A stretch of 64,000 nt of DNA from the NCBI GenBank assembly GCA_017591395.1, contig WEDG01002501.1, forward strand, positions 1-64,000, in the 5' to 3' direction. A model generated the notes under the pieces. That model worked only from the letters and a program-made list of their open reading frames with translations, was not told the origin of the DNA and made no database searches. This document shows positions 1,212 to 62,780 of this stretch, in pieces (within the stretch, counting starts at the first letter, position 1; the number at the start of each line of letters is the position of its first letter). The DNA comes from Schistocephalus solidus. Taxonomy: Eukaryota; Platyhelminthes; Cestoda; Diphyllobothriidea; Diphyllobothriidae. The translations under genes were made by a program, and so were the position numbers.

Positions 1212-1740
1212 AGCACTGCCGGAAATTTAGCGCAAGTTCACCCGCATTACTGTCATTTCGATTACAGTCACCTGGAAGTATCCCATTATGTCTTTAACCT
1301 TTAACACCTTCGTGAGTGGATCGTGATAACTTGGTAACGCCCGAAAAAGGCTAAATGACTTTTCCATTCTTCGATTAATTTAATTATAGTAAAGGCACAT
1401 GCATAATGCCAACAAAGAAAAGGGAGACTGAAAAGGAAATTTCTGGCTCATTAGCCGTCAGCAGCTTAGATAATTTTGAACACCAGCTGCCGTGACACTT
1501 GCAAATTAGGGGTTTCCAAGTTACATACTACATTAATTCTAAATAAGATAAATCACAATTTCTCTGTGTTATTATAAATTTGTCGCATAATGCTTACAAA
1601 TTCCACAATTACTATGGATCTTGCTGTATACTTCATAAGCAGCGTTAATAAATGGACAGATACAGTGTTTTTGATATCTATACGCTTTACCTGGGACTTT
1701 ACAGCAAAAATGGTTTAATTAACTGAGAGAATGAGAAAAG
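1212..1740. other. No recognised gene
   Basis: AT-rich. At 1645-1668 there is a word (ATAAATGGACAGATAC-like) that recurs at about 30606 and 31742, hinting at an old low-copy repeat. Nothing else is seen. Confidence 0.4.
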
Positions 1741-12790: not shown

Positions 12791-13090
12791 ATTCGTTGAT
12801 GAATGCTCACCGATCACTAACGGAACTCACTCGTTCTGACCTACGTTGAGGCTCACTCACAAGCCCCGCCGGCAGGCGCACAGGAGCTTTTAGTAGAATA
12901 GGCAGATGAATATTGCTGGCAAAAACGTGGGAGACTGGAATGGTCATACCTGGCTTATAAGCCGTCGACCGCACCACCCAAGGATGGAACCAGTGACCCG
13001 TTGATCAGAAGTTCAACCCTCTTACCATTTGGCCAGAACTGGTCCTTCCATTCTCCTCATCTTTGCCGGCAATATTCATCTGCCTATTAG
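12791..13090 (-). mobile_element. SINE copy with tails at both ends (decayed)
   Basis: Read on the minus strand, 13050-12980 is a decayed tRNA-like head and 12980-12897 the SINE body and tail. It retains CCATTCCAGTC-like and TAGGCAGA-like blocks, but the hammerhead core CTGATGA has become GGTCGA. A second tail in the opposite orientation lies at 13040-13090, making an inverted repeat around the head. A companion motif at 12795-12832 (GATGAATGCTCACC) recurs at 62694 and, inverted, at 62837-62876. Confidence 0.65.
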
Positions 13091-14700: not shown

Positions 14701-14792
14701 GCTGAAGGAACAAGTATGTTCCGTTTAGCCCTGGAGCTCACATTAGAGCCCTCGCAGACAGTCGCATATATATATAAACCGGCAAGACAACG

Positions 14793-14958
14793 AGCTCGTG
14801 GCGCAGTGGGTAGAGCGTTGGACTTCTGCCCAACAAGGTCGCGAGTTCGAGGCTCGGGCGCTGCAGCGCCTGGGTTTGGGTATGGCTGGCTGATGACGGC
14901 TAATAAGCCAGAAATGGCCATTCAAGTCTCCCTTGTCTTTGTCGGTCATGTTATTCTG

Positions 14959-14960
<2 letters not shown>
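14793..14960 (+). mobile_element. tRNA-derived SINE with hammerhead motif
   Basis: The head (14793-14862) is tRNA-like: an A box around GTGGCGCAGTGGGTAGAGC, an anticodon-arm region GTTGGACTTCTGCCCAAC, and a B box GAGTTCGAGGC. It most resembles tRNA-Arg(TCT), though the anticodon loop looks one base too long, so it is a pol III promoter rather than a working tRNA. The body (14870-14928) folds as a hammerhead ribozyme. A 32-nt tail ending in TTATTCTGCC leads into a TA run. Other copies lie at 36072-36170 (+), 62490-62660 (-), 12897-13050 (-) and 23828-23935. RNA polymerase III transcription and mobilisation in trans are inferred. Confidence 0.85.
14884..14928 (+). ncRNA. Hammerhead ribozyme motif in SINE
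   Basis: A 45-nt type I hammerhead layout. Stem I is GGCTGG (14884-14889) with CAAGTC (14923-14928), one mismatch; other copies have CCAGTC, a full pairing. The core CTGATGA is at 14890-14896. Stem II is GGCT/AGCC with loop AATA. GAAA is at 14911-14914. Stem III is the palindrome ATGGCCAT (14914-14921), with cleavage predicted after T14922. The base of stem II is a C/A non-pair. The self-complementary stem III suggests activity as a dimer. Folding was done by hand. Confidence 0.72.
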
Positions 14961-15049: not shown

Positions 15050-15658
15050 GGAACAACTGCAGTTCCCGGTGCTGCAGGGGGAGGGTGGATGATGGATCAT
15101 TTGGATTCCGGGTGACTGGGTTGCCGCTAATTGATTCGGCATTTAACCGGGGGCGGTGAGTCGTAATCGTAGACCCTCATAATGGATGTCCAGGTCAACA
15201 TGGCGGTTGATACTGTACCAGGCCTCGAGCAATTCTCTCGCTCCTTTTGTGTTGGCCATGGCGATGACCTCAGTTTCAACCCAATTGAATCGCTGATCGC
15301 ACTCGAGTGCGTGCGCAAAGACGAGGGACAAAGGGTCTAGGCAGTGGACGGCTAGTTTGTGCTCATTAATGCGGGTGCCCAGGCGTCGACCCGTATGCCC
15401 AATATAAACACAAGAGCAATTTGCGCACGGGATGCGATAAATTACGTTGGTTTGTTGAATTTTGGGGATGGGATCCTTTATTCGGGATAGTGTGGTGCGT
15501 AGTGAGGATGCTGGCTTGTGAGCGACGTGTATACCAAGGTGATTCAACTGCCGAACGATTACCTCAGAGGCCCTCTTCATATAAGGCAGGGAGTAGAATT
15601 TTTGTGCCACAATTTCTCCGTTTGGGGTGGGGTCTTGCGGTTGTGCTTGGGAAGGGGT
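15050..15658 (-). pseudogene. PLE-A copy, GIY-YIG nuclease (5'-truncated)
   Basis: The minus-strand ORF 15676-15143 gives the linker GEIVAQKFYSLPYMKRASEV, then LGIHVAHKPASSLRTTLSRI, and the nuclease: NVIYRIPCANCSCVYIGHTG (GIY-YIG with PLE cysteines), TRINEHKLA, and ARELLEAW (catalytic Glu). The nuclease domain is uninterrupted. The element is 5'-truncated in the linker and lacks the RT. The 3' UTR runs to the TA run at 15049 and shows no obvious hammerhead. At about 15655 it meets a PLE-B tail in the opposite orientation. Confidence 0.85.
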
Positions 15659-15900
15659 GGAAGAGGCAACAGCCAATCAAAATGGGTTTTCACCCCCATC
15701 GCAAGTAATTGGCAGGAAGTACAAGGAAATCTCGATTTTTTAAAACGTTTGAAATTTTAACTGTTTGTTTACACTTGCTTCACGTCGGACGACGTGCTTG
15801 GGATCCAGCGTTGAAAATTAACCCATGAAATCTTATTCCGTTTCCCAAAGAAGTTCGTGTTTTCGAATTATAATTCTTGGGATGCCCATTTTCCAGTTGT
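15655..15900 (+). mobile_element. PLE-B 3' tail, inverted relative to PLE-A
   Basis: The sequence aligns with 20590-20826 (+), the 3' tail of PLE-B: CAGCCAATC..., TTGGCAGGAA..., a decayed hammerhead-like block at 15787-15822 (GGACGACG ... GTTGAAAATT), and TTTCCCAAAGAA...CTTGGGATGCC. It begins where the minus-strand PLE-A copy begins, so the two fragments are joined head to head with both 3' ends facing outward. Confidence 0.7.
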
Positions 15901-18552: not shown

Positions 18553-18579
18553 CCGCGTAAATTCTACTCCCTACCTTAC

Positions 18580-19050
18580 ATGCAGGGCATCTCCGAAGCG
18601 ATCGCCCGACAATTAAACCGGTTTGGCATCTCCATTGCGCACAAACCGGCATCGTCCTTGCGCGCAACACTATCCCGAGTAAAAGACCCTGTACCCAAAG
18701 AGCAGCAAACTAATGTCATCTATCGCATTCCGTGTGCTAACTGCTCTTGCACTTATATTGGTCATACCGGCCGACGACTTGGGACGCGTATTACGGAACA
18801 TAAACTAGCCATTCGTCGACGCGACCCTTTGTCACTCATCTTTGCGCATGCCCTTGAGTTCGACCATCGCTTCAATTGGGACGGAACCGAAGTTGTTGCA
18901 ATGGCTAACAACAAACAGGCGCGTGAATTCCTCGAGGCGTGGCATTCTAACACGACCAGCATCAACCGCCATGTCGATCTGGACTCTCAATACGAAGGCC
19001 TGCGTGCACGGCTCACTGATTTGCGCCCACAACCTAACCACAGCCGCTAA
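18580..19050 (+). CDS. PLE-A GIY-YIG endonuclease domain ORF
   Basis: A 156-residue uninterrupted ORF homologous to the C-terminal third of Penelope-like retroelement proteins. In the full element this domain nicks target DNA for reverse transcription in the nucleus. Visible: FGISIAHKPASSLRATLSRV (residues 15-34), NVIYRIPC (45-52) with the PLE CxxCxC cysteines, YIG (59-61), GTRITEHKLA (68-77, with the catalytic-type Arg70), and REFLEAW (115-121) with a candidate metal-binding Glu. The Met at 18580 is the first in a 5'-truncated copy, not a natural start; homology extends upstream to 18553. Without the RT domain it is not an autonomous element, and expression is doubtful. Confidence 0.8.
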   Translation: MQGISEAIARQLNRFGISIAHKPASSLRATLSRVKDPVPKEQQTNVIYRIPCANCSCTYIGHTGRRLGTRITEHKLAIRRRDPLSLIFAHALEFDHRFNWDGTEVVAMANNKQAREFLEAWHSNTTSINRHVDLDSQYEGLRARLTDLRPQPNHSR

Positions 19051-19375
19051 TCTTTTTCTGGACCATGTAGAATCTCACTGTCTCGCCACCCCTCCCCTGA
19101 CATGGCGAACAACAGTTGAAACTATAAAAACCTCAAAAATCCATGCAATTACTTCTGTCCCCATCCCGCATCGTCGACCATTAAGTTTACCGTCTGCAGT
19201 CACATTTAATCGCCATCCCCTTAGCCTCCGGCACAGGGAACCCTAACAGCCCCCGCCCCCTAACCGGCCCCAATCCAATCATGTACCCATTCCTCACACC
19301 CCAGTTGGTTGTCTGTCCTTGTCTGTCCTGTAGCACAAACTGGTCATCTGACCATTTCATTTCTCCTCTGTTCAT

Positions 19376-19421
19376 TTCGTCTGACGACGGGTTGGTGTGA
19401 CCAACTTGAAAAATTCACGAG
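19376..19421 (+). ncRNA. Hammerhead ribozyme motif at PLE-A 3' end
   Basis: Stem I TTCGT/ACGAG (5 bp, one G-U). Core CTGACGA at 19381-19387, one extra C, stem II GGGTTGGT/ACCAACTT with a 3-nt loop, GAAA at 19408-19411. Stem III is a short self-complementary A/T stretch and cleavage is predicted after C19416. Hammerheads in PLE terminal repeats are documented in the literature for other animals. The AATT-type stem III implies dimeric folding. Confidence 0.68.
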
Positions 19422-19470
19422 TACAACTCTATTTTCCGACGAGCCCTATTTTTCTTCAATATATATATAT

Positions 19471-20482
19471 GTAGAAGCAAAAGACGTTCTTTGGGAAACA
19501 ATAGATAACTTTATTATGTAAATTTTCGACGCTGGCACCCCAGATCGTCGTCAGACTTGTGGTAAGTGTGCAAAACAGTTCAAATTTAACACGTGCCGGA
19601 AAAATCGATATTGCTTTGTCATTCCTGCCAATTGTTGTCATTGTGGGTGGATTTACATTTCGGATTGGCTCTTGCCTCTTCCCGCTTTCTTTCAGGTAGT
19701 CGTACACATGGTCCAATTCGATGCGTCGGTTGATGCATGAGTTTATCTGAGAAAACGGCCTCTAAAAATTCTCGGCCTTTCTTAGATGGACAGGAGGCAA
19801 CAATGCGGGTTTTGTCCCAGGCAAATTTGTGTCCCTGTTTCTAGCGTGTGCATGGCAACTTGAGACAAGTGGTCTCGCTTCCTTATGGCCAATTGATGTT
19901 CGTGTATGCGCGTGGAGGCTGATTTTCCTGTCTGACCACAGTACACCGCATTGCAGCTGTTACATGGTATCTTGTAAACGACTTCTTTTTTATCTAAATA
20001 GCCAACCCTATCCTTAGGGTGTACAAGCTGGTTTCGAAGTGTAGTCGTTGGTTTGTGCGCCACTTGGATTTGATGTTTCCGCAGGTGTCTTTCAAAGAGT
20101 TCGGACACGTTCTTGATGTACGGAAGTGTTCGCCAGTTCTTTGATTTGGGCGCTTGACCGGAACAATCTAGTTCCTTGTCTTTTTCCTTTTTTTCTTTTT
20201 AACTTCTGTCGTCTCATGCATCGACGTATAAATTCTCTTGGATAACCATTTCGCAAAATAGTTTGAATAAATAACTGAGTTCGTTTTGGTAGAGTTCATT
20301 ATCAGAACAGTGCGTTTTAGCTCGATTGAGTAGGCTGTTAACAGTACTCCGCTTGTGAGCAATAGGGTGGTTGCTCTGGTAATGCAGGATAATTTCCGCA
20401 TAAGCTTTCTTGCGGTAAACCGATGTTTGAAATGTCCCGTCAGTCTTTCGCTGTACGAGGACGTCAAGAAACGGCCTTTTTC
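19471..20482 (-). pseudogene. PLE-B copy: RT C-terminus plus GIY-YIG nuclease
   Basis: Reading the minus strand from 20482: RPFLDVLVQRKTDGTF, SVYRKKAYAEIILHY and NHPIAHKRSTVNSLL, the conserved end of the PLE reverse transcriptase. A linker with a stop follows (about 20220), then RTLPYIKNVSELFERHL, HKPTTTLRNQLVHPKDR, and the nuclease EVVYKIPCNSCNAVYCGQTG, TRIHEHQLAI and, after a frameshift near 19820, KKGREFLEAVFSD. The first, catalytic half of the RT is missing. The 3' tail (19790-19471) matches the plus-strand fragment that adjoins this copy at 20482, giving a head-to-head pair. Confidence 0.85.
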
Positions 20483-20826
20483 TAAGAAAGGCCGAGAATT
20501 TTTAGAGGCCGTTTTCTCAGATGACTCATGCATCAACCGACGCATCGAATTGGACCATGTGTACGACTACCTGAAAGAAAGCGGGAAGAAACGACAGCCA
20601 ATCCAAAATGTAAATGCCCCCACAATGACAACAATTGGCAGGAATGACAAAGCAATATCGATTTTCCGGCACGTGTTAAATTTGAACTGTTTTTGCACAC
20701 TTACCACAAGTCTGACGACGATCTGGGGTGCCAGCGTCGAAAATTTACATAAAAAAGTTACCTATTGTTTCCCAAAGAACGTCTTTGCTTCTAAATATAT
20801 TTCTTGGGATGCCTATTTTCCAATTG
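20480..20826 (+). mobile_element. PLE-B inverted 3' fragment
   Basis: The sequence repeats, in opposite orientation, the last ~320 bp of the PLE-B copy at 19471-20482. It starts in frame at SKKGREFLEAVFSDD, runs through DHVYDYLKESGKK and the 3' UTR to CCAATTGA, then into a TA run. The junction at about 20470-20495 is itself a small hairpin (GGCC...GGCC). Such inverted partial copies are a known feature of Penelope insertions. Confidence 0.8.
20718..20758 (+). ncRNA. Weak hammerhead-like motif in PLE-B tail
   Basis: Core-like CTGACGA, a stem II candidate (CTGG/CCAG) and GAAAATTT are present at the same place as in PLE-A. Stem I (AAGT/ACAT) is poor and stem II is irregular. The inverted partner at 19515-19556 carries the same sequence. 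Probably a diverged, inactive relative. Confidence 0.4.
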
Positions 20827-20850
20827 ATATATATATATATATATATATAT
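20827..20850. repeat. TA dinucleotide run
   Basis: Twelve TA units directly after the PLE-B 3' end. Confidence 0.95.
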
Positions 20851-21979
20851 AATTGCAGCTTCCCGTATCTTTCCGAGACGTTACCATATCTGTGCGTGGC
20901 AATTTGGATTTGAAGTAAACTTTACAACACTAATATCTATATCGAACATTCCTTGTTAAAACCAATCTCGAGCAATTGCTTCGATCTCCTAGGGAGCAAT
21001 GATTGACCAAAATGATAAAAGTTGGTGTCTCTGCATGAGGCACTTGCATTATTGAGGCCATTGGTTTATTGCCTCAAGGCTTATAACACGTACGACCATC
21101 TATCGTCGTAGATAATTATACCAAAAAAGCATGCGCTAACACACGATATTAAACAGATAGCGCTGCACGTGTGGATAGAACAGTGTGGACTCTGCATGAG
21201 GACAGCGGGTGGATGTGGTGTCGTGGGCAAGTACCAACCTTGCAGCTGCACGCCTACTCTCATTACATATCAGAGGTGTCTTGGATGCATAACAACTTAA
21301 CATTGACGATGATCTGCTGCAGCAGATATACTGCCGGCATTTTTCATGCATGAGGATGTAGCGTAGACGCACTGTCCATGCCGGTTAGATCAGGCATTAT
21401 GACGGCAGCAGCAAACGCTTCCAAACAACACACTGACGGTCCTTACCAGGCGCATCGGCGAACCAGACGGCTTCAGCTAATGCTCAACTTCCCGGCACCT
21501 GTGGTTACATGAGGCCATACACAGTACGGTGACCAGATTCTGGCAACCTCCCTTGACCGGCGAGATAGCTCAACTAGGATTGTCCGACGCCTGTGTCTTC
21601 AGGGTCAATTGTTCCTAAAATAATCTTCATCCTCCCGATACACCACTAAACAAAACACACTATGGAGTGGGCAACACACAAATCCGTAAGCGTCTAAAGC
21701 ACGCAGGGCTCAAGAACCCAGCTCAATAGTGAAATTCATCAGTTATCTGGGACGATGTAGCAGCGTTAGGGAAAGAATTCAGAAAATTTTGCCTAAAATT
21801 GTTGATAAAACGCCATCGTCAAGCTGACAATCAATTGAACACATGACATATAAGGTGGAAGAAAAAGAAATGGAAACCGTCATATAATCCATGTATGAGC
21901 CTCCGAAAATGATGTCAGAATGGCAATGGTCAAGATGACAGCCTAGAAAGCTCACTGGCTAATAGGGAATGTAGTGGTA
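20851..21979. other. No recognised gene
   Basis: Short ORFs on both strands at 21.1-21.4 kb overlap one another and show no domain. The right-hand end may hold the unrecognisable start of the LINE relic that follows. Confidence 0.35.
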
Positions 21980-23700: not shown

Positions 23701-23827
23701 AAAATTGTCTGTGGTTCAAAAGCAATGATGAACAACTCTGGTGATCATGAAGTCAAGAACGTGGAGGACTGGACCCCGCACTACAAAAGTCTCCTCAAAA
23801 ACCTGTCTATTAGCAGATTACCGAAAA

Positions 23828-23935
23828 GAGACACTGGAATAGTCAGTTCTCGCTTATCAGCCGTCATCGCTTGTCTTTTTTGGTTATGTTCTATTGCCTA
23901 CAATACTTACAGCTTTGCGGCTACTGGCGGGGTTT
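23828..23935. mobile_element. Decayed SINE fragment
   Basis: The minus-strand 23872-23832 aligns with the SINE hammerhead region (GATGACGGCTGATAAGC, TATTCCAGTG). It is followed by a tail-like stretch in plus orientation (TTGTCTTTTTTGGTTATGTT). It interrupts the LINE relic. The core is damaged. Confidence 0.5.
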
Positions 23936-25660: not shown

Positions 25661-28180
25661 TTTTGATTCTTGCATACTATGTTAACTTATCCTTTTCCCT
25701 TAGTAACTGCAGCCATTTCTTTTTTGCTGAAAACGTTGAATGATACTTTCAAAATAAAGCACATTTCTCTCTTTCATGCGATGCCACATCGACGCAGCAC
25801 ATCGGGTACTGCTTCTGGAGTAAGCAATCTGTCCATTTCGCCAGAGGTAATATAGTGGGCAAAAAGTCACATGTCTGAATATGCACCTTTCATTTTGGAT
25901 GCCGTTATATCCTATGGCGTTGTCTGGTGTGCGATGTGGTGACTAGATCCTGTGCGGCACGCGTAGAGTGGCTGTCCAGCCACTGTTACTACGCCCGCTT
26001 TTAACCATCCGGTAACTTTGTCTCGCCATCTGAACAACGGCAGAAGGAAAAGGAGAAGGGCTTCATATTTTTTAACATAACTATGTCACAATGAATTAGG
26101 TTACGCCCAAGTCACCCGTTCTGCGTCCCCTGAAAGGGGATGCAGTGGATATCTTCGTTAGCCACCATCCTGCGTGCTCAATGGTGCACAAGTTCACATT
26201 AACTGCTGCACTAGAAAGTAGCGTACGGAAATTGCGTTAACGCAAAATTCGGCTTAAAGCTCCAATTTGATGTGCTTTAAAGCTGAGTGGTGTAGATACT
26301 GTTTGAGGATGAATGGACACTTAAATATTTATGAGGGCGTTTCATCGACAAATAAACTTACATGTTATTTCTGGCTGATTTGTTTTCATTAGCCAGCGAT
26401 ACAGCAGTCTGAGGCTGCATAATTATCTTAAAGCCCCAAATCAGTGAACCATCCAGCAACGCCCTCAAAAAGGCACCACAGTACTCGTGGTACGTCGTCT
26501 TAGAATGAGAATATTTAGTGATGTGAGACTGCTGCGAACTGACCTTATTTGGTCGCATAAAGCAAATTAGCATTTCCGTTTTACTTTTGAGCCGATTGTC
26601 TGCAGAACCTGCAGGCGGTCACGCGGCGACTTAGCATGAATCATTGATGAGCTAAGAAGATAGTACCATAAGCAAACATCATTTCGGCACTTTAAGCTAG
26701 ATAAAGCAACTTCGCGATCCATGTAGAGACTGCGATCTAGAAATTGCTTCATTAGGAAGCCACAGTCGAATAGTATTTTGCTTGTGAAGTGCATCTAGTT
26801 GCCTATTTTTGAGCAGAGCAGACCACACGAGTAGCATCTGCTACTGTTATCTTTTTTGATATACGTTGCTAAATATTTTTGCCTCTTCCGACATATCATA
26901 AAACTGCAGCTTTGTAATCATGCTCATTGCATAAAGAAAGTCATTTCCCTACTAATATTGTCAAGCTGCACGTTGAAGGCAATATCTCAGGGACGAACAT
27001 AATTGTCACGATGGCCATTCGTTTCCCCTTGATCCTGAGGAGAAAATAATTTCACAATGTTTTATTTAGCTTATCTCACGCAATGCGTATTTTAAAAGTG
27101 GGTAATGAATTCAAATGGGGCATAAACACAAATCGCAACAGTGCACTTACAGTTATTTTGGATAACACATTTCAACCTGTGCTTCTTACTCATTCCTGAT
27201 TATGCGTTCATATTCGGTGCATTATTTAAGGCTCTGAAATATTCTTACAAATGCCAGTTGTAGCAAGCTGATTCGTTCAAAGTTTTGCGAAAGTCATTTT
27301 CAAATGACCTGCAAAATTGAGAAGAGCTAAGGCTTCACCCTTAGTTTCCCTGATACTATTCTCCTACATATATTAATTTTTCGTGGAAGGTTAAATTTCA
27401 CATCTCTCAGCAGGTTTTTGAAACCAAGCAGCCATTTGTTTTGATCTTTTTTTGCAGGCAAATTTACTTATATGTAAATCGGTTGGCCTATTTCGCCCAT
27501 TAAATACCGATTATTAGTCCTCTGTTTATTTAAGCTACAAAAATAAGGTCCTCAGCGCACGACGCTGGTACTATTTTGAAGAAAGTCCAATTTCATGTAC
27601 ATTTTACGAGTCATTCAAGGAAGATTCTTCATGATATCGATAATTGCAGTCTTCGGCCATTCGTTTGTGATCTTCCGGTGTTATGTAGTTTGTGTGTCTA
27701 ATCTTATTCACAGTGAATGGAGGACGTTTTGCTGAAAATTTTGGAAATCAACTTTCAAAATAAAGCGTACTTCTCTCTCATCTCTGATAGATTCAGATTT
27801 CGGGAAATCCAAGTAGGCTATGGTCACTTTTTTATCCTCAAAGTACGCACTCGAACTCTTTTTTGAAATGTAACCTAAAACATTAGCCTACGTTCTTTAC
27901 TTGAGGGAATCCACATTCGGAAAACAAGCATTTGTATAAAGCATTGTGTGTATGAGGAATCAGAAACTTCTATGCCTATGGCTTGTGTCTGTGGGCTGTG
28001 GATTTGCCTTACCATCAAAGGTCTGAGGGTTGGGAAGAGTGAAATGAGGCATATGCGCTCAGTGCCTGTTTCACTACAAAACATTTGCTTGCAAATTAAT
28101 GCTATGTCCATCTCGATGGAGGGAGTCAATGTACTGTTTGAATTCATCACTTGTAACGGTCGAATTGTACTTTCATTCAC
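25661..28180. other. No recognised gene
   Basis: AT-rich. Short segments (26435-26485, 26895-26960) resemble other intergenic parts of the window (10.4 and 16.6 kb), indicating old unclassified repeats. No protein domain seen. Confidence 0.35.
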
Positions 28181-28401
28181 AGATGTGGTTAGGATCTCCC
28201 TCGATCCTATTCTGCCCGCCCGCAACATACCCTTAGCAACATACCATTGTATTATATGTGGCATGTGTCTTATGACAACGTTCGTTTATCGCCAGTAGCA
28301 GGCTGGCGGGTGGGCAGAATGGGATCGAGTGAGATCCTAACCACATCATTGAGTCACGCGCTCGTTTCACTTCTGTATATACCTCACTTCTCAAGGCATA
28401 T

Positions 28402-28446
28402 GACGTACTGATAATCGGTAAAAACCGTGAAACGGCTGTCTGCGTC
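28402..28446 (+). ncRNA. Hammerhead motif, unit 1 (core mutated)
   Basis: Stem I GACGTA/TGCGTC (one wobble), stem II CGGT/ACCG with loop AAAA, GAAA at 28429-28432, predicted site after C28440. The core reads CTGATAA instead of CTGATGA, changing the essential G8, so this copy is probably inactive. Confidence 0.7.
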
Positions 28447-28653
28447 TTGCCTTTTGTACCCTCAGCTACGTACCCTTACATTATATACATATACATGTCA
28501 AACAAGCGAATGACACTCACTGATGTGGTTAGGATCACACTTGATCCCATTACGTCCGCCCGCCAGCTAGCCACTGGCGATAAACGAACGTTGTGTCATA
28601 AGACACATGCCACATATAATTTAAAGGTATGTTGCTATAGGTGCAACAGGCAA

Positions 28654-28698
28654 GACGTAGACAGCTGTTTCACGGTCGTTACCGATCATCAGTACGTC
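28654..28698 (-). ncRNA. Hammerhead ribozyme, unit 2
   Basis: The minus strand reads GACGTA, CTGATGA, T, CGGT AACG ACCG, T, GAAA, CAGCTGTC, TACGTC. Stem I is six perfect pairs, the core is canonical, and the cleavage triplet is GTC. Stem III (ACAGCTGT) is a self-complementary 8-mer, which would suit dimer folding. Only the U/U at the base of stem II is non-standard. Confidence 0.85.
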
Positions 28699-28952
28699 AT
28701 ATGCCTTGTGCAGTGAGGAATATATACATGTCAAACAAGCGTACGACACTCACTGATGTCTACGTCTTGCCTGTTGCACCTATAGCAACATACCGATAAA
28801 TTATATGTGGCCTGTGTCTTATGACACAACGTTCGTTTATCGCCAGTGGCTAGCTGGCGGGCGGACGTAATGGGATCAATCGTGATCCTAACCACATCAG
28901 TGAGTCATACGCTTGTTTGACATGTATATATTCCTCACCGCACAAGGCATAT

Positions 28953-28997
28953 GACGTACTGATGATCGGTAACGACCGTGAAACCGCTGTCTACGTC
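28953..28997 (+). ncRNA. Hammerhead ribozyme, unit 3
   Basis: GACGTA (28953-28958), CTGATGA (28959-28965), stem II CGGT/ACCG with loop AACG, GAAA (28980-28983), a 2-bp stem III (AC/GT with loop CGCT), GTC site with cleavage after C28991, TACGTC (28992-28997). All core positions are canonical. It ends 31 bp before the TA run. Confidence 0.87.
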
Positions 28998-29024
28998 TTG
29001 CCTGTTGCACCTATAGCAACATAC

Positions 29025-29028
<4 letters not shown>

Positions 29029-29077
<49 letters not shown>
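29029..29077. repeat. TA dinucleotide run
   Basis: About 24 TA units between the retrozyme-like cluster and the PLE-end palindrome. Confidence 0.97.
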
Positions 29078-29080
<3 letters not shown>

Positions 29081-29153
29081 GATCAGAGATAGTATGCATT
29101 CCGGGCTGATATAATGAAAAAGGGAGAGGTTCTTTCGGAAAATGCGAGTTTTA

Positions 29154-29198
29154 CTCGTGAATTTTCGAGCTGGTTACACCAACCCGTCGTCAGACGAA
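29154..29198 (-). ncRNA. Hammerhead motif, left arm of PLE palindrome
   Basis: On the minus strand: stem I TTCGT/ACGAG, core CTGACGA, stem II GGGTTGGT paired with ACCAGCTC through mostly standard pairs, GAAA, AATT stem III, site after C. Same layout as 19376-19421. Confidence 0.65.
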
Positions 29199-29239
29199 AT
29201 AAATAAAAGTGAGTGTTAGAATGTCGCACTTTTATTTAT

Positions 29240-29284
29240 TTCGTCTGACGACGGGTTAGTGTAACCAGCTCGAAAATTCACGAG
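29240..29284 (+). ncRNA. Hammerhead motif, right arm of PLE palindrome
   Basis: Mirror of the left arm: TTCGT 29240-29244, CTGACGA 29245-29251, GAAA 29272-29275, site after C29279, ACGAG 29280-29284. One A/C mismatch in stem II. Confidence 0.65.
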
Positions 29285-29333
29285 TAAAACTCGCATTTTT
29301 CGAAGAACCTCTCCCTTTTTTCATATATATATG

Positions 29334-36071: not shown

Positions 36072-36180
36072 TTCTGGCGGTGGCCAGTGAGCCAGTGTAT
36101 GGCTGGCTGATGACGGCTAATAAACCAGAACTGGCAATTCCAGTCTCCATTGCTTTTGTCGGTAATGACTTTTTGAACAC
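36072..36180 (+). mobile_element. SINE fragment (body and tail)
   Basis: The body TGTATGGCTGGCTGATGACG and the tail CCAGTCTCCATTGCTTTTGTC match the SINE at 14870-14960; no tRNA head is recognisable. The hammerhead region 36101-36145 keeps CTGATGA and full stem I (GGCTGG/CCAGTC) but has GAAC for GAAA and a broken stem II, so it is likely inactive. Confidence 0.75.
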
Positions 36181-45129: not shown

Positions 45130-45222
45130 GTCTCTGCTTATTCGTTTCATTGAGAATCCGGAACGTCAGGCCAATAAACTTCTTCTTCCACCTATCGCAT
45201 CTTCTCCTTCTGAACTTCGTCC
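45130..45222 (+). mobile_element. PLE-C 3'-end fragment
   Basis: GGAACGTCAGGCCAATAAAC followed by TTCTTCCACCTATCGCATC matches the 3' end of PLE-C at 46500-46545 (minus) and 46805-46860 (plus). The expected CTGATGA core upstream is degraded. Confidence 0.65.
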
Positions 45223-45228
45223 TCGAAC

Positions 45229-45720
45229 TTGACTGTTCGGTCCGATCGGCAATATGAGTTCTTATATGGAAATACAGCCCGGTGGACAGCTCGGAATATT
45301 CGGGGTGTATTTTTCTACATTATTACTACGCAGGAAACAGAATCAAAATGTTTTGCGAAATTTCTTTCTGGTAAATTTAACCCTTACGAATACGCCACGT
45401 GGTCGGCCGGAATCAATGGTGCATAGTGTTCAACTGCAAGTTACCGTCGAGTCAAATCCATCTCAAAAAACACATGAATTATCGTTGACGTTCGGTGTTA
45501 GCAAGCAAGCAATATTAGCTGACCTAGATGAAGTCGGTAAAGTGGAACGTTAGATATGTGAGTTCCACATGAACTACGTTTGCAAGTCTACATGATATAT
45601 TCTTTCTCGTCGCAAAGCCTATTTGTTTTTGAATCAATTTCTTGCGTTTGATGAGAAATGGATCCAAGAAGAAAACCAAAAACTATTAGCACAGTGGCAA
45701 GGGAAGTATAAGCCATGACG
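45229..45720 (+). pseudogene. mariner-family transposase fragment
   Basis: Translation in two frames gives the N-terminal half of a mariner-type transposase: YEFLYGNTARWTARNIRGVF, KCFAKFLSGKFNPYEY (first HTH), RGRPESMVHSVQLQVTVESN, PSQKTHELSLTFGVSKQAIL (second HTH), GKVER, and after stops FDEKWIQEENQK, which corresponds to the region of the first catalytic Asp (CDEKWI in the family). The C-terminal catalytic half and both terminal repeats are not visible. Frameshifts near 45395 and stops at 45552 and 45594 make it inactive. A PLE-C tail abuts it on the left. Confidence 0.75.
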
Positions 45721-46448: not shown

Positions 46449-46534
46449 TACCACAGTTTACTGATAGAAGCAAACAGGCGAGTTCTAGGAATCAATTCAG
46501 AAGGAGAAGATGCGATCGCTGGAACAAGAAGTTT

Positions 46535-46582
46535 ATTGGCCTGACGTTTCGGTTACCCGCTTCAACACATCATCAGAGACAA
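46535..46582 (-). ncRNA. Hammerhead motif in PLE-C (minus copy)
   Basis: Minus strand: stem I ATTGTCT / AGGC(C)AAT with one bulge, core CTGATGA, one U, stem II (GUGUUG / GUAACC, one bulge), GAAA, stem III ACGT (self-complementary, implying a dimer), cleavage after C46542 (CGTC). Confidence 0.65.
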
Positions 46583-46769
46583 TCGCAGATGAGTGTAATA
46601 GATCGCGAGGTGCGCAGTTTTATAGTCCGGTCTGCCAAGCCACTATCGCATAAACCACAAACCCGATGCTGATCACAAGAGTTGTTAATTATATTACGCC
46701 TGCGGTCGCGTGGTCACTACGTACTTTAAATACCACGAACTTTGTGTTTCTATTACCCTTATTTGCCAA

Positions 46770-46815
46770 GTTCTCTGATGATATGTTCGAGCCAGAATCT
46801 GAAAAGTCAGGCCAA
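46770..46815 (+). ncRNA. Hammerhead-like motif in PLE-C (plus copy)
   Basis: CTGATGA at 46775-46781, stem II ATGTTC/GAATCT with one mismatch, GAAA at 46801-46804, AGTC, then AGGCCAAT. Stem I is weaker than in the inverted partner and stem III is not palindromic, so activity is doubtful. Confidence 0.45.
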
Positions 46816-47206
46816 TAAACTTCTTGTTCCACCCAACACATCTTCCCCTTCTAAGCTTAAATACTAGTTGGTTACGTGGTTATTCAGCAGGTGCTGATAG
46901 ACTTCACCTCGATATTTGTACCGAACTTGGAAAGCTGCGTGCCGAAACATTTACTTCATGTTCGCGCATTAATTTCCTAGAAATTTAGAAACTGTAAGAT
47001 GGAAACTGGATTGTGTATACCAGAAAACACACGGGTAAGGCTGGGGAACCCATGGAATAGACGGACACATCGCATCTGTGCGTGTCTGAACTTTTAACTA
47101 CTATCTGTGCTGTCCGAAGGGTAACTAGTTAGGTACTTGTATACTGCGGATGGCCTGCTGGCTGCTTGCAGATATTATGCGTTAGGCCTCAGTAACCGAT
47201 GGAGCT

Positions 47207-49756: not shown

Positions 49757-51140
49757 GCTACCGCACTCTCTCCTCCTCCCCCACCTGAGCCCGGTGTCAA
49801 GACAGAGTCAAGAAGACCGGAGATGGGAGAGGGCGCATGTGGCTGGCGCGGCCGGAGCCGCCCCTGGGCATGCCACAACACCTGGCTTGGATCCCACGGA
49901 GTGGGAGTGCCATAAAGGCCACATTACGAAGGATCCATTGCAACCTGACTCTCAGTCCGCCAGTCAGCCACTCCACACAAAACACACATTGGGCTGACCA
50001 CGCGGTCCGAGTTATTCCGTCAGTTGGCAACCTTCCAAGCCACGGCTTTTAGCGCACCGTAATAGTTTCAAGCGCCTCAGATTGTTTATAGTGAGGAAAA
50101 TACGCTGAGCTCTCGACCTCACTCTCTCCCCCACCCCCACAATCAGACCACTGTCCGAGCCGGTCAGTTTTCTGATGCGGAAGCGGGCGCAGCTGTTGGT
50201 GACCTCGTCTACGTGTACTACGTACACGACCTGGCCCCCCAAAGATAAGAACCAGGATTTCACACAACAGTGGGTTGAATGGCTTACATCTCACATGTGC
50301 GAGATAGCCGGAGGTCACGTTAAGAAGGAGCCATCGCAGCCTGACTCTCAGACCACCAGTCAGCCACTTCAAACAACACACATTGGACTAACTGCGAGGT
50401 CTGAGTGTAATTGTCAGTTGGCAACCTTCCAACCGCGGTACTCAACGTTACCGCACTCTCTTCTCCTCCCCCACCTGAGCCCGGTCTCATGACACAGTCA
50501 AGAAGGCCGGAGATGAGAGAGGGCGCAGGTGGCTGGTGCGGTCGGAGCCGCCCCTGGGCGTACCACCACACCTGGCTCGGATCCCACAGAGTGGGAGTGC
50601 CATAAAGACCACATTAATAACGAGCCATTGCAGCCTGACTCTCAGTCTGCCAGTCAGCCACTGCACACAAAACACACATTGGGCTGACCATGCGGTCCGA
50701 GTTATCCCGTCAGTTGGCAACCTTCCAAGCCACGGCTTTTAGCGCAACGTGATAGTTTTAAGCGCGTCAGATTGTTTATAGTGAGGAACATGCGCTGAGC
50801 TGTTGACCTCACTCTCTCCCCAACCCCCACCATCAGACACTGTCCGAGCCGGTCAGTTGCCTGATGTGGGAGTGGGCGCATTGGCTGACGGATCGGCGTA
50901 CCCGTCTTCGCGCGCCACAGCACGACCTGGCCCCCCATAACGCACACACCAGGATTCACAAACTCAGGGGATATGGAGCAGTCATCACCGTCTGACTCCC
51001 AGTCAACTGGTCAGCTACTCGACACACATAGCACATACACTGAGCCGACGGCGTGGTCTGATGGAAGCGTCAGATTGGTAGACTTCCCAGCCACGGTTTC
51101 TAGGAAACCGTGATATACTCTGGTAAATGGTGATTGTGAG
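49757..51140 (-). repeat. Tandem repeats in LINE 3' UTR (692-bp dimers)
   Basis: ACCGCACTCTC at 49757 recurs 692 bp later at 50449, and ACCTCACTCTCTCCC at 50117 recurs at 50808. Within each dimer the two halves (~350 bp) are related: CTGACTCTCAGxCxxCCAGTC occurs at 49940, 50340 and 50638, with a diverged fourth copy at about 50991. Confidence 0.85.
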
Positions 51141-51838: not shown

Positions 51839-53466
51839 CTATGATGGTGGCAGTAATGGAATTGATGCCAGGAGTGAGGGTGGTGGAGTCAGAAGGAGGG
51901 TTGGCAGAATTTGACGTCGAAATTGGAATTGTCGGATTGTTGGTGCATTGCGTCCGAAGATTCCAACCAGGCCGATTCGCGCGTGGAAGATGCATTGACA
52001 GCGCGGGCATGTTGGCAGGGCCTGGGCATTGGCGGTGTTGGTCCGGGGCGCTGGTGATTTTCGTGCCGCTCTTTTGGCCTTGGCGGCTGCGATCCGGTTG
52101 GCCTCATAGATTGCTGCACCAGCCTTCACGGATCTTCTCCATGCCGGTTTATCCTGTGCGAGGTCCTCCCAGGACGCCGGGTTGATCTGCAGTTGCTTCA
52201 GCGATTTCTTCAAAGTGTCCTTGTAGCGTTGTTTTTGACCTCCCTGCCGGCGAGAACCCGTAGCGACATCTCCGTAGAAAAGTAGTTTGGGTAGTCGCTC
52301 GTCGTCCATTCTTACCAGGTGGCCGCTCCATCGCAGTTGCACTTGCCTCAGCATGGCATGGATGCTGAAGATTCCGGTCCGCTCCAGGACTCCCGTGTCC
52401 TGGATCCTGTCTTGCCATCTCAGCTTAAGTATTCTGCGGAGGCAGCTGAGATGAAAGTGATTCAGCTTCCTGGCTTTGTTCGAGTAGACGGTCCAGGTTT
52501 CCGCTCCGTAAAGGAGTGTCGTCAAGACGACGGCCTTGTACATCTTCATGTTGGTGTTCAGGTGAATACCGTGGCGATTCCACACGGAAGCCTGCAACCT
52601 GCCGAAGGCCTGACTAGGTTTGGAGATCCGTTGGGCAACCTCGTCATCGATTCTCGTGTTGCGCGACATCGTGTTTCCTAGATAAGCGAAGGTTTCCACG
52701 TTTTTTAGTTGAGCACCGTTGACATTGATTCGAGGACCATTGTATTCCGCGCTGGGTGGCGGCTGGCGCATGACAACCGTTTTGGCTGTACTGATTGTTA
52801 ATCCGAAATCGGCGCAGCCTTCGGCGAAGAGGTCCATGCTCCTTTGCATGTCCTCCTCCGTCACGGTGTTAAGGGCGCAGTCGTCCGCAAAGAGCAAGTC
52901 ATGGACTGCAGTCGTAGACACGCGCGTTGGAGCCTGCATACGCTGACTGTTGATAAGGTGCCCGTCAGTTCTGTAGGCGATGCGGATACCAGGCTGCTCA
53001 TCACGGTAGGCGTCCATCAGCATAGCCGAGAACATGAGACTGAAGAGGGTGGGGGCCAGTACGCAGCCCTGCTTCACTCCGTTGGTCACTGCGAATGCTT
53101 CGGATACCGTCCCGTTGTCAGTGACGCGCGCCGTCATCCCGTCATGAAGCTGACGCACCATGTGCGTGAACCGCTCAGGACAACCAAATTTCTGCATGAC
53201 TTTCCACAGTCCGTCACGATTCACCGTGTCAAAGGCTTTCGTTAGATCCACGAAGGTAGTGTATAGGTGAGTTCGCATCTCCTGACACTTCTCTTGTAGA
53301 GATGGACGATGGTCGCATCTCTGAAATCCTGAGGAACTTGTCCTTGGCGCCACATCACCTGGAAGAGTGTTGTGAGTTCTCCCATCAACCGGGGCCCACT
53401 GTGCTTGTAGACTTCCGGTGAGATTGCGTCGGATCCCGGTGCTTTACCACTGGAAATCTGCTGCAC
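51839..53466 (-). pseudogene. LINE reverse transcriptase
   Basis: From the N-terminal side: [20 protein letters not shown] and [12 protein letters not shown] (domain 0/1), then a break at 53295 where about 85 residues of the fingers are missing. The frame resumes with [35 protein letters not shown] (motif A, catalytic Asp), [19 protein letters not shown] (motif B), [20 protein letters not shown] (motif C, catalytic FADD), [20 protein letters not shown] (motif E), then the C-terminal [18 protein letters not shown] and [20 protein letters not shown]. Catalytic residues are intact; the deletion shifts the frame. The family copies element RNA at a nicked target. Confidence 0.88.
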
Positions 53467-53739
53467 AGCCCGGATGGCTTTGTGTAGTCCATTCTTCTCC
53501 GCGAGTAAGTTGCTGATGTCGGCGTCATTGTCGTCAAACCAGTCCTGGTGTCAACGGCGTGCGCGTCCGAGGACATCGAGGGCGGTGAACTGGATGACAT
53601 TTCGCAGTTGACACCATCGTGTCTCCACGGTAGCGTTATCATCTGGAGCATGCAGGTCCTCCAGTTTCTCGGTTATTTGGTTGCTGAAATCAAAACAGTG
53701 GGCGGCAAATTTAATAAAAGAGTTTTTCACTAACCTGGT

Positions 53740-54672
53740 GGCCGCTTACCTTGGGGCTTTCGTCGGGATTGCAGTCGGAGCCTCATCTGGGAGATGACGA
53801 GGCGGTGATCTGTCCAACCATTGGCATCGCGGATCGCCTAGGTTACCAGCATGTCCTGTCGGTCTCGCCTCCGGACGAGAACATAGTCCAGCAGATGCCA
53901 GCGCCGCGACCGAGGGTGCATCCACGTGGCCTTCTCCCGCGTCGGAAGGCGGAAGAAGGTGTTGGTCAGCAGGAGACGGTGTTCCGCACACGTGCGCAGA
54001 AGAAGGAGGCCGTTATCGTTACAGCTACCGAGACCGTGGGGACCCAGCATTCCTGCCAGGCAGCCTGGTCCGTCCCGACGCGGGCATTGAAATCACCAAG
54101 GACAATTAACTTGTCCACTTTCGGCACAGTCGCCAGCAAGGCGTGCAGGTCCTCGTAGAATTTGTCTTTCGCCGCATCAGAGCTCGTCATTGGGGAGCGT
54201 AGGCGCTGATGATGGTGGCGAACTGGTCTCCCCGAAGAGGCAGGCGGAGGCTCATCAGGCGATCATTGATACCCTGCGGCAGACAGGGCAGACGTCCCAC
54301 GATGTCGTTCCGGATGGAAAAGGTGACACCAGCGTCGCGTTGCTCTGCCTTTGGCCAGCCGCTCCAGAAGAAGGTGTAGCTGGCACCCACCTCCTCCAGC
54401 TGACCCTGCTCAAAGAATCGGGTCTCGCTGAGAGCAGCAATGTCCACCTTGTAGCGCACCAGTTCCCGAGTGACTAGCGCCGTCCTTCGTTCGAGCCGGT
54501 TGCTCCTTGGATTGTCTAAAAGGGAACGAACATTCCAGGCTGCTAGTGTGAGTGGACTCACCCGAGCAGCCTGGAGGGTATGGCGAGGGGGATTGGGACG
54601 GAGGGTATTGTTGTTTGTTTGAGTTTTACGACCGCGTATTTTGCGATCTGCGAGCCGCAGCCGGTTGCACAA
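53740..54672 (-). pseudogene. LINE APE-type endonuclease
   Basis: The Met at 54672 starts a basic region followed by [14 protein letters not shown] (catalytic Asn), [10 protein letters not shown] (catalytic Glu), [38 protein letters not shown], a one-base loss in a C run (about 54196) moving to the frame [30 protein letters not shown] (Asp/Asn), another one-base loss near 54055, then [36 protein letters not shown] (catalytic Asp) and GWTDH (catalytic Asp-His). All active-site signatures are visible, but in three frames. The fold resembles the craniofacial-development-protein-2-like endonucleases typical of RTE elements. Confidence 0.88.
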
Positions 54673-62485: not shown

Positions 62486-62780
62486 GAGAAACATTGCTGA
62501 CAAAGATAAGGGAGAGTGGAATGGCCATTTCGAATGACCCATTAATCATCATCAGCCAGTCATACCTAACCCCAGGTGGTGTAAGACCTAAGGTTTGAAA
62601 CCACAACCCGTTGATCAGAAGTCCAGCCATCTAAACATTGAACCACGGGCTCATTGTCTTGCTGATTTATATCGGGAATATTGACATTCTTTGATGAACG
62701 CTCACCGATCGCTAATGAACCGGAAATGGCCATTTGGTCTTCTTTTTCGTTGTCGGCAATGTTAATTTCCATATGAAGTT
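62486..62780 (-). mobile_element. SINE copy with tails at both ends
   Basis: On the minus strand the tRNA-like head lies at about 62648-62585 (A box GTGGTTCAATGTTTAGATGG, GACTTCTGATCAACGG, B box GTTTCAAACC), followed by the body with a hammerhead (62561-62514) and the tail ending near 62490. Right of the head, 62690-62780 is another body/tail segment in plus orientation (CGGAAATGGCCATTTGGTC...GTCGGCAATGTTA). The same odd arrangement is seen at 12791-13090. Confidence 0.7.
62514..62561 (-). ncRNA. Hammerhead ribozyme motif in SINE
   Basis: Minus strand: stem I GACTGG/CCACTC (5 of 6), core CTGATGA, stem II GATT/GGTC with wobbles, a 3-nt insertion, GAAA, palindromic stem III ATGGCCAT, cleavage after the following T. 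The core is intact; the insertion next to GAAA may weaken it. Confidence 0.6.

Follow-up and report, generated by a model that had tools for sequence, protein, structure and literature searches.

Head-to-head inverted dimers of a 231-bp retrozyme-like unit in the tapeworm Schistocephalus solidus and their likeness to Penelope-like element copies

Results

The window analysed here is a stretch of 64,000 nucleotides, positions 1 to 64,000 of the forward strand of contig WEDG01002501.1 of Schistocephalus solidus (assembly GCA_017591395.1). Alignment to a tripled monomer resolved 28177-29037 into four pieces of one repeated unit in alternating orientation, and BLAST (E<=0.01) detected no further copies of the unit in the window outside this region. 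The monomer is 231 bp long and lies complete at 28761-28991. The right-hand pair (28489-29037) is a complete head-to-head inverted dimer, each arm of which exceeds one unit. Its plus arm (28757-29037) carries monomer positions 228-231, 1-231 and 1-46, i.e. 1.2 units, with 278 of 281 positions identical; 3 mismatches fall in the final ~10 nt, where the arm blends into a TA tract (29026-29077, strand not assigned) at its outer end. The minus arm (28489-28759) carries monomer positions 134-231 and then 1-169, with 258 identities, 9 mismatches and 4 gap positions. The two arms overlap by 3 nt, TGT, at 28757-28759. Head-to-tail order is thus limited to 1.2 units in each right arm, with no full direct dimer, while the arms are inverted to each other. 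The monomer contains TATAT only at positions 42, 165 and 167, and the outer ends of the right dimer fall there. The longest open reading frame of this dimer has 54 aa. An exact run-off at the 5' end of the ribozyme was considered and rejected: the plus arm begins 1-4 nt upstream of the cut, and the TGT overlap explains this equally well.

The left-hand pair (28177-28486) is an older head-to-head inverted dimer without its centre. Its plus arm (28231-28486) covers monomer positions 19-231 and then 1-46 (213 identities, 43 mismatches and 3 gap positions), and a minus remnant (28177-28223) covers positions 97-143 (38 of 47 identical). Over the 47 nt that the four pieces have in common, the two arms within a block differ at 2 (right) and 5 (left) positions and arms of different blocks at 7-9, the left minus remnant differing from the right arms at 8 and 9; this suggests, over these few sites, either two events or arm-to-arm conversion. 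The right minus arm reads TGAGTGTC where the right plus arm and the left plus arm read TGAGTC. Both overlapping ends of this minus arm carry a 2-nt insertion that the right plus arm lacks, as would be expected if one variant RNA had been circled more than once, and the right plus arm would then have been copied from another RNA variant than the minus arm. A homogenised tandem transcript would explain the same pattern equally well. The alignment of the arms to the monomer bears out the inverted units reported in a preliminary description of this DNA, but its "array" is better described as two inverted dimers resembling insertion products.

Both right arms contain a candidate hammerhead motif, at 28945-29003 on the plus strand (intact core at 28959, predicted cut after 28991) and at 28648-28706 on the minus strand (intact core at 28692, predicted cut after 28660). 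A left copy at 28394-28452 on the plus strand (28408) retains the stems, with its core changed to CTGATAA. Each right-arm motif runs through CTGATGA, GAAA and GTC with stem II CGGT/ACCG, a stem III of 2 bp with a 4-nt loop, and a stem I extending past an internal loop (AGGCA-TAT-GACGTA / TACGTC-T-TGCCT). We take such an extended stem I with an internal loop to be the arrangement of complete type I hammerheads, which have loop contacts. The loop III region of the minus-arm motif, ACAGCTGT, is a palindrome. The stem II position adjoining the core, which in hammerheads is usually G-C, is a U.U mismatch in both intact motifs. The three motifs of ~45 nt noted earlier are therefore present, those at 28953-28997 (+) and 28654-28698 (-) with CTGATGA, GAAA, the GTC site and the 6-bp stem I GACGTA/TACGTC. 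The description of these two as fully canonical holds for the intact CTGATGA and GAAA on opposite strands and fails at the U.U in stem II; likewise, a hammerhead in each unit is found in both right arms and is altered in the core of the left copy. A CUGANAA core was predicted to be inactive, and was reported so in a cleavage test, in the Schistosoma passages of PMC8490949.

A strict descriptor of the motif matched 2 places in the window and none in 60 dinucleotide shuffles, and the two intact motifs are counted as one event because they are copies of one sequence. A relaxed descriptor gave 6 matches against 0.05 per shuffle (100 shuffles): the two retrozyme motifs, one in the tail behind the frame at 18553-19050 described below, the pair 29193/29245, and 46576. 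An Rfam search of the window, put forward in the preliminary description as a check, matched no hammerhead family: 0 families reached the gathering score, and the PLE-type hammerhead motifs of the window were missed as well. At E<=10, there were 13 Rfam matches in 28100-29100 and 1 in 28940-29010, with no hammerhead among them; these weak matches (miRNA, snoRNA, UTR and others) were set aside as fitting palindromes and TA runs. The candidate motif is thus not a textbook hammerhead, given the U.U in stem II and the missing Rfam match. Exact core patterns had 0 matches in two contig collections, which are viral or prokaryotic, so that this comparison carries little weight.

When the right motif is compared with the left copy, the stems differ at 1 of 34 bases and the sequence outside the motif at 39 of 205 (one-sided P=0.011), and the whole motif differs at 5 of 59 positions (P=0.037). 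Since the stems are less diverged than their surroundings, selection in the source lineage likely preserved the hammerhead structure, as judged from one pair of copies. Base-pair covariation over the three copies, a sample without power, showed 0 pairs changed on both sides. For the isolated 59-mers, the predicted minimum lies 4.5-5.5 kcal/mol below the hammerhead fold. The circular monomer has a predicted fold of -78.0 kcal/mol, against -54.4 +/- 5.4 for 200 composition shuffles. In addition, a short open frame crosses the hammerhead in both right arms, at 28917-29030 (+) and 28621-28749 (-); the frames have 37 and 42 aa, and their C-terminal 34 aa are the same save one residue. Such a frame is reminiscent of the anole Penelope-like element (PLE), and it could be of chance origin.

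The sites at which the unit could be cut bear on whether circles arise here. A monomer of 231 bp between two successive cleavage sites had been described. The monomer at 28761-28991 is indeed present, but the site at 28760/28761 exists only in its letters: GTC|TACGTC arises there where the minus and plus arms join, with no ribozyme core upstream. The site cut by a type I hammerhead lies downstream of the core of the same motif. Only a single intact motif is present on each strand, and an active two-ribozyme array is ruled out on this ground. The earlier proposal that the locus yields ~231-nt circles from both strands cannot be upheld for the same reason: the intact motifs would allow no more than one cut on each strand, and the locus alone would be unable to release a monomer.

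PLE-type copies occur elsewhere in the window. Two frames gave GIY-YIG matches slightly under the curated Pfam cut-off (E 2.3e-4 and 4e-4), the latter at 18580-19047 in a PLE fragment with a GIY-YIG domain at 18553-19050 (+). This frame has 65 relatives, of which 58 are named, all from Sparganum, Spirometra, Schistocephalus or Dibothriocephalus, names that point to a diphyllobothriid tapeworm as the likely host. The frame lies upstream of a PLE-type tail at 19371-19468 (+) with a hammerhead motif (19381 +); this tail ends 42 nt beyond the predicted cut, in a TA tract. Next to it is a head-to-head PLE copy (19465-20851). Its minus arm (19465-20501) contains the end of RT, GIY-YIG, a hammerhead-like core (19554) and a 3' end at a TA tract, and matches a Sparganum protein with 47% identity over 73 aa and 39% over 108 aa. 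Its plus arm (20481-20851) is 95.4% alike to 19465-19786 over 323 columns; it has a hammerhead-like core (20712), and its TA tract occupies 20827-20851. This copy has TA tracts at both ends, the plus arm reaching ~31 nt further out. Among published PLE structures, head-to-head ones are the most frequent, targets are AT-rich and a tail is optional in the structural account of PMC3846280, and the layout of 19465-20851 matches these structures.

A PLE-type tail also adjoins the retrozyme locus as an inverted pair at 29109-29330, a 91% palindrome (strand not assigned) with a small hammerhead motif in each arm, at 29193 (-) and 29245 (+); the same tail stands at 19371-19468, behind the GIY-YIG frame. 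Another PLE-type hammerhead copy (46576) lies at 46499-46602 (-) and its inverted partner at 46749-46852 (+), which has a stem I of 3 bp and, at 46775, the core CTGATGA/GAAA. The copies at 29109-29330 and at 45.1-46.9 kb, two PLE-type families, are classed by motif, position or likeness of the tail rather than by protein, and for 46499-46602 by motif only. With 45158-45237, the copies 46499-46602 and 46749-46852 make up a PLE-type hammerhead family whose members are paired both in inverted and in direct order and lack TA tracts at their ends. The PLE fragment 15143-15676 is a case that does not fit, as a TA tract lies close to its end and no hammerhead is seen in between.

When repeat rows at most 3 kb apart were compared (BLAST E<=1e-6), 10 of 10 inverted rows came from the retrozyme locus (5) or from PLE-type copies (5), and the direct rows (n=14) were of mixed classes. 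The six arms of three PLE-type inverted pairs end 44, 44, 50, 51, 54 and 55 nt past the predicted cut, the ends being defined by sequence similarity. The two plus arms of the retrozyme locus stop in TA-rich DNA, each 46 nt beyond its predicted cut, with a (TA)3+ run starting 38 and 41 nt past the cut. Such a run is found at 42, 43, 48 and 49 nt in 4 of 7 PLE-type copies; among the remaining ones, one has it at 81 nt and two have none within 150 nt. In the copy 20712, the run at 48 nt is short and a long TA tract lies at ~80 nt, and the similarity of 46576 to another copy at 45.2 kb continues to 70 nt. By arithmetic, an earlier start would lie ~45-62 nt past the cut. The head-to-head orientation and 2 of 2 retrozyme plus ends fit the PLE-like pattern, but 2 of 2 minus arms end elsewhere, the right one 171 nt past the cut, away from the PLE-like place, and the left one at monomer position 143 with no TA tract. 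These minus-arm ends count against a simple end rule, and the end positions are partly set by the TA-rich matching itself. A loose scan gave 11 motifs, 5 of which are followed by a (TA)4+ tract that begins 36-50 nt downstream, as compared with 0.28% of positions. Since two of the 11 motifs, including one of the 5 with a tract, come from the SINE-like family X and the others are copies related to each other, no P value is claimed for this excess.

Other repeats were also noted. A dispersed SINE-like repeat has six copies, at 14760-14960 (+), 36097-36167 (+), 62490-62672 (-), 1406-1465 (-), 12898-12966 (-) and 23823-23868 (-); all are degenerate, and the longer ones contain tRNA-like box motifs. 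Its 3' part contains a hammerhead-like core (CTGATGA, GGCT/AGCC, GAAA, ATGGCCAT), and in the copy at 14.9 kb a long TA tract is reached 38 nt beyond the position at which it would be cut. ARAGORN reported 0 tRNA genes. LINE-type fragments at 51839-54672 (-) include an RVT_1 frame and an endonuclease/phosphatase frame, with a C2H2 zinc-finger frame nearby, and 49759-50880 holds two direct copies of ~433 bp with 91% identity, 258 bp apart.

Discussion

The features of the unit support its identification as a retrozyme-like element, as the preliminary description had it. The unit of 231 bp is inside the ~170-400 nt expected of metazoan non-LTR retrozymes, its GC content of 47.2% is under their limit of 50%, and it has no coding capacity beyond frames of at most 54 aa. 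The core, stems I-III and cleavage site in the type I layout are present in both right arms, with the U.U at the base of stem II, the missing Rfam match and the changed core of the left copy as deviations, and the predicted circle is strongly self-paired. In these respects, it is like the metazoan non-LTR retrozymes of PMC7229834, small repeats of ~170-400 nt with type I hammerheads, low GC and a self-paired circular fold; platyhelminths are among their named hosts and PLEs are proposed as their carriers in the pertinent sections (PMC7229834; Cervera and de la Pena, 2020). However, those sections describe direct tandem repeats, whereas our locus consists of head-to-head inverted dimers with one intact motif per strand and a U.U opening stem II. 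What appears to be new here is the occurrence of retrozyme-like units as inverted dimers with a PLE-like end: the passages retrieved from the literature on inverted retrozymes, PLE inversion and tapeworm hammerheads contain no description of an inverted-dimer retrozyme.

Other hammerhead-bearing repeats can be compared as well. The SM-alpha and W-elements of Schistosoma are likewise flatworm repeats with type I hammerheads, and three Schistosoma candidates tested were active in vitro, but these elements are satellite- or SINE-like and the corresponding passages give no inverted-dimer insertion (PMC8490949). Plant LTR retrozymes are also non-autonomous, hammerhead-bearing and form RNA circles, but differ in their type III hammerheads, LTRs, primer-binding site and greater length in the accounts of PMC7761336 and PMC11722881. 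PLEs with pseudo-LTRs and minimal hammerheads share with our locus the head-to-head ends, the AT-rich targets and an end downstream of the hammerhead, as far as outlined in PMC3846280 and PMC11167929. On the other hand, PLEs encode RT and GIY-YIG, neither of which is encoded by the 231-bp unit, and the minus arms of the unit end elsewhere. In 28170-29040, no RT and GIY-YIG coding frame was found, and we do not place the locus among the PLEs themselves.

We consider it rather probable, from the arrangement of the sequences, that a PLE reverse transcriptase inserted the hammerhead-bearing units, with circular or multimeric retrozyme RNA as its template. Several other origins have to be weighed. 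The unit might be the solo terminal part (pseudo-LTR) of an unseen PLE family, in which case the hammerhead would belong to that PLE and the dimer would be a truncated PLE insertion of the ordinary kind. PLE pseudo-LTRs of ~200 bp with inverted partners have been published (PMC3846280, in part), the ORF of the anole PLE begins at hammerhead stem II according to the relevant part of PMC11167929, and a short frame is open through the motif in both right arms of our dimer. Nevertheless, the unit has no similarity to any PLE piece of the window, and its motif has a longer stem I that includes an internal loop, together with a stem III region of 8 nt, whereas the passages of PMC7761336 characterize the hammerheads of PLEs as minimal. 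Moreover, permuted arms exceeding one unit fit a 231-nt repeating template, and we regard the pseudo-LTR origin as unlikely.

Less likely still is an origin without any role of PLEs, either by LINE-type insertion with twin priming or by rearrangement of a tandem array through inversion and palindrome deletion. L1 twin priming yields inverted copies, LINE fragments (RVT_1, endonuclease) are present in the window, and the deletion of the centre of the left block presumably fits palindrome instability. Against this, rows at most 3 kb apart in the LINE region are all direct and none is inverted, no poly(A)-type tail is seen, and the ends lie in TA-rich DNA near the PLE-like distance. Finally, the locus might be a foldback or satellite repeat in which the resemblance to a hammerhead is a functionless relic. 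This would account for the inverted arms, the lack of a long ORF and the lack of an Rfam hammerhead match, but we find it very improbable, since the motif is absent from 60 shuffles, the stems are conserved against an 18% diverged copy, and the arms are permuted and exceed one unit.

Mobilisation by PLEs is therefore the best-supported mechanism, and probably the right one, though drawn from the anatomy at one locus. PLEs have been named a strong candidate for moving animal retrozymes because both have type I hammerheads, tandem copies and co-occurrence (PMC7229834, in part). In this mechanism, a source locus elsewhere would supply retrozyme RNA, which would cleave itself and become circular. 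A PLE protein may then open a TA-rich target, where copying would begin ~45 nt 3' of the hammerhead, as the common end position suggests. Priming by the other DNA strand, at a further UAUAU site of the RNA, would give a second copy with the opposite orientation, and the two cDNAs would be joined head to head at a 3-nt overlap, such as that seen at 28757-28759. The anole PLE protein cuts and extends both strands of AT-rich DNA in the experiments covered by the consulted part of PMC11167929. Since two cDNAs would be joined in this way, 28177-29037 is read as an insertion product and not as a source of circles.

A more general reading is possible, though we hold it only tentatively and think it more doubtful than not. 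The hammerhead and the ~45 nt after it may form a common docking and start module for PLE reverse transcriptase, at which the PLEs, retrozymes and hammerhead-like SINEs of this worm all end. Small RNA circles with this module would be copied into TA-rich DNA simultaneously from both strands, and the resulting palindromic dimers would be a record of two RNA variants copied by the rolling-circle mode. If PLE mobilisation is true, the insertion form and the end position in common with PLE copies would be a DNA trace of the retrozyme mover. Moreover, the hammerhead of PLEs may then serve as a recognition site rather than only as a cutter, which would be in line with the insertion still carried out by cleavage-dead mutants of the anole PLE (PMC11167929, in part).
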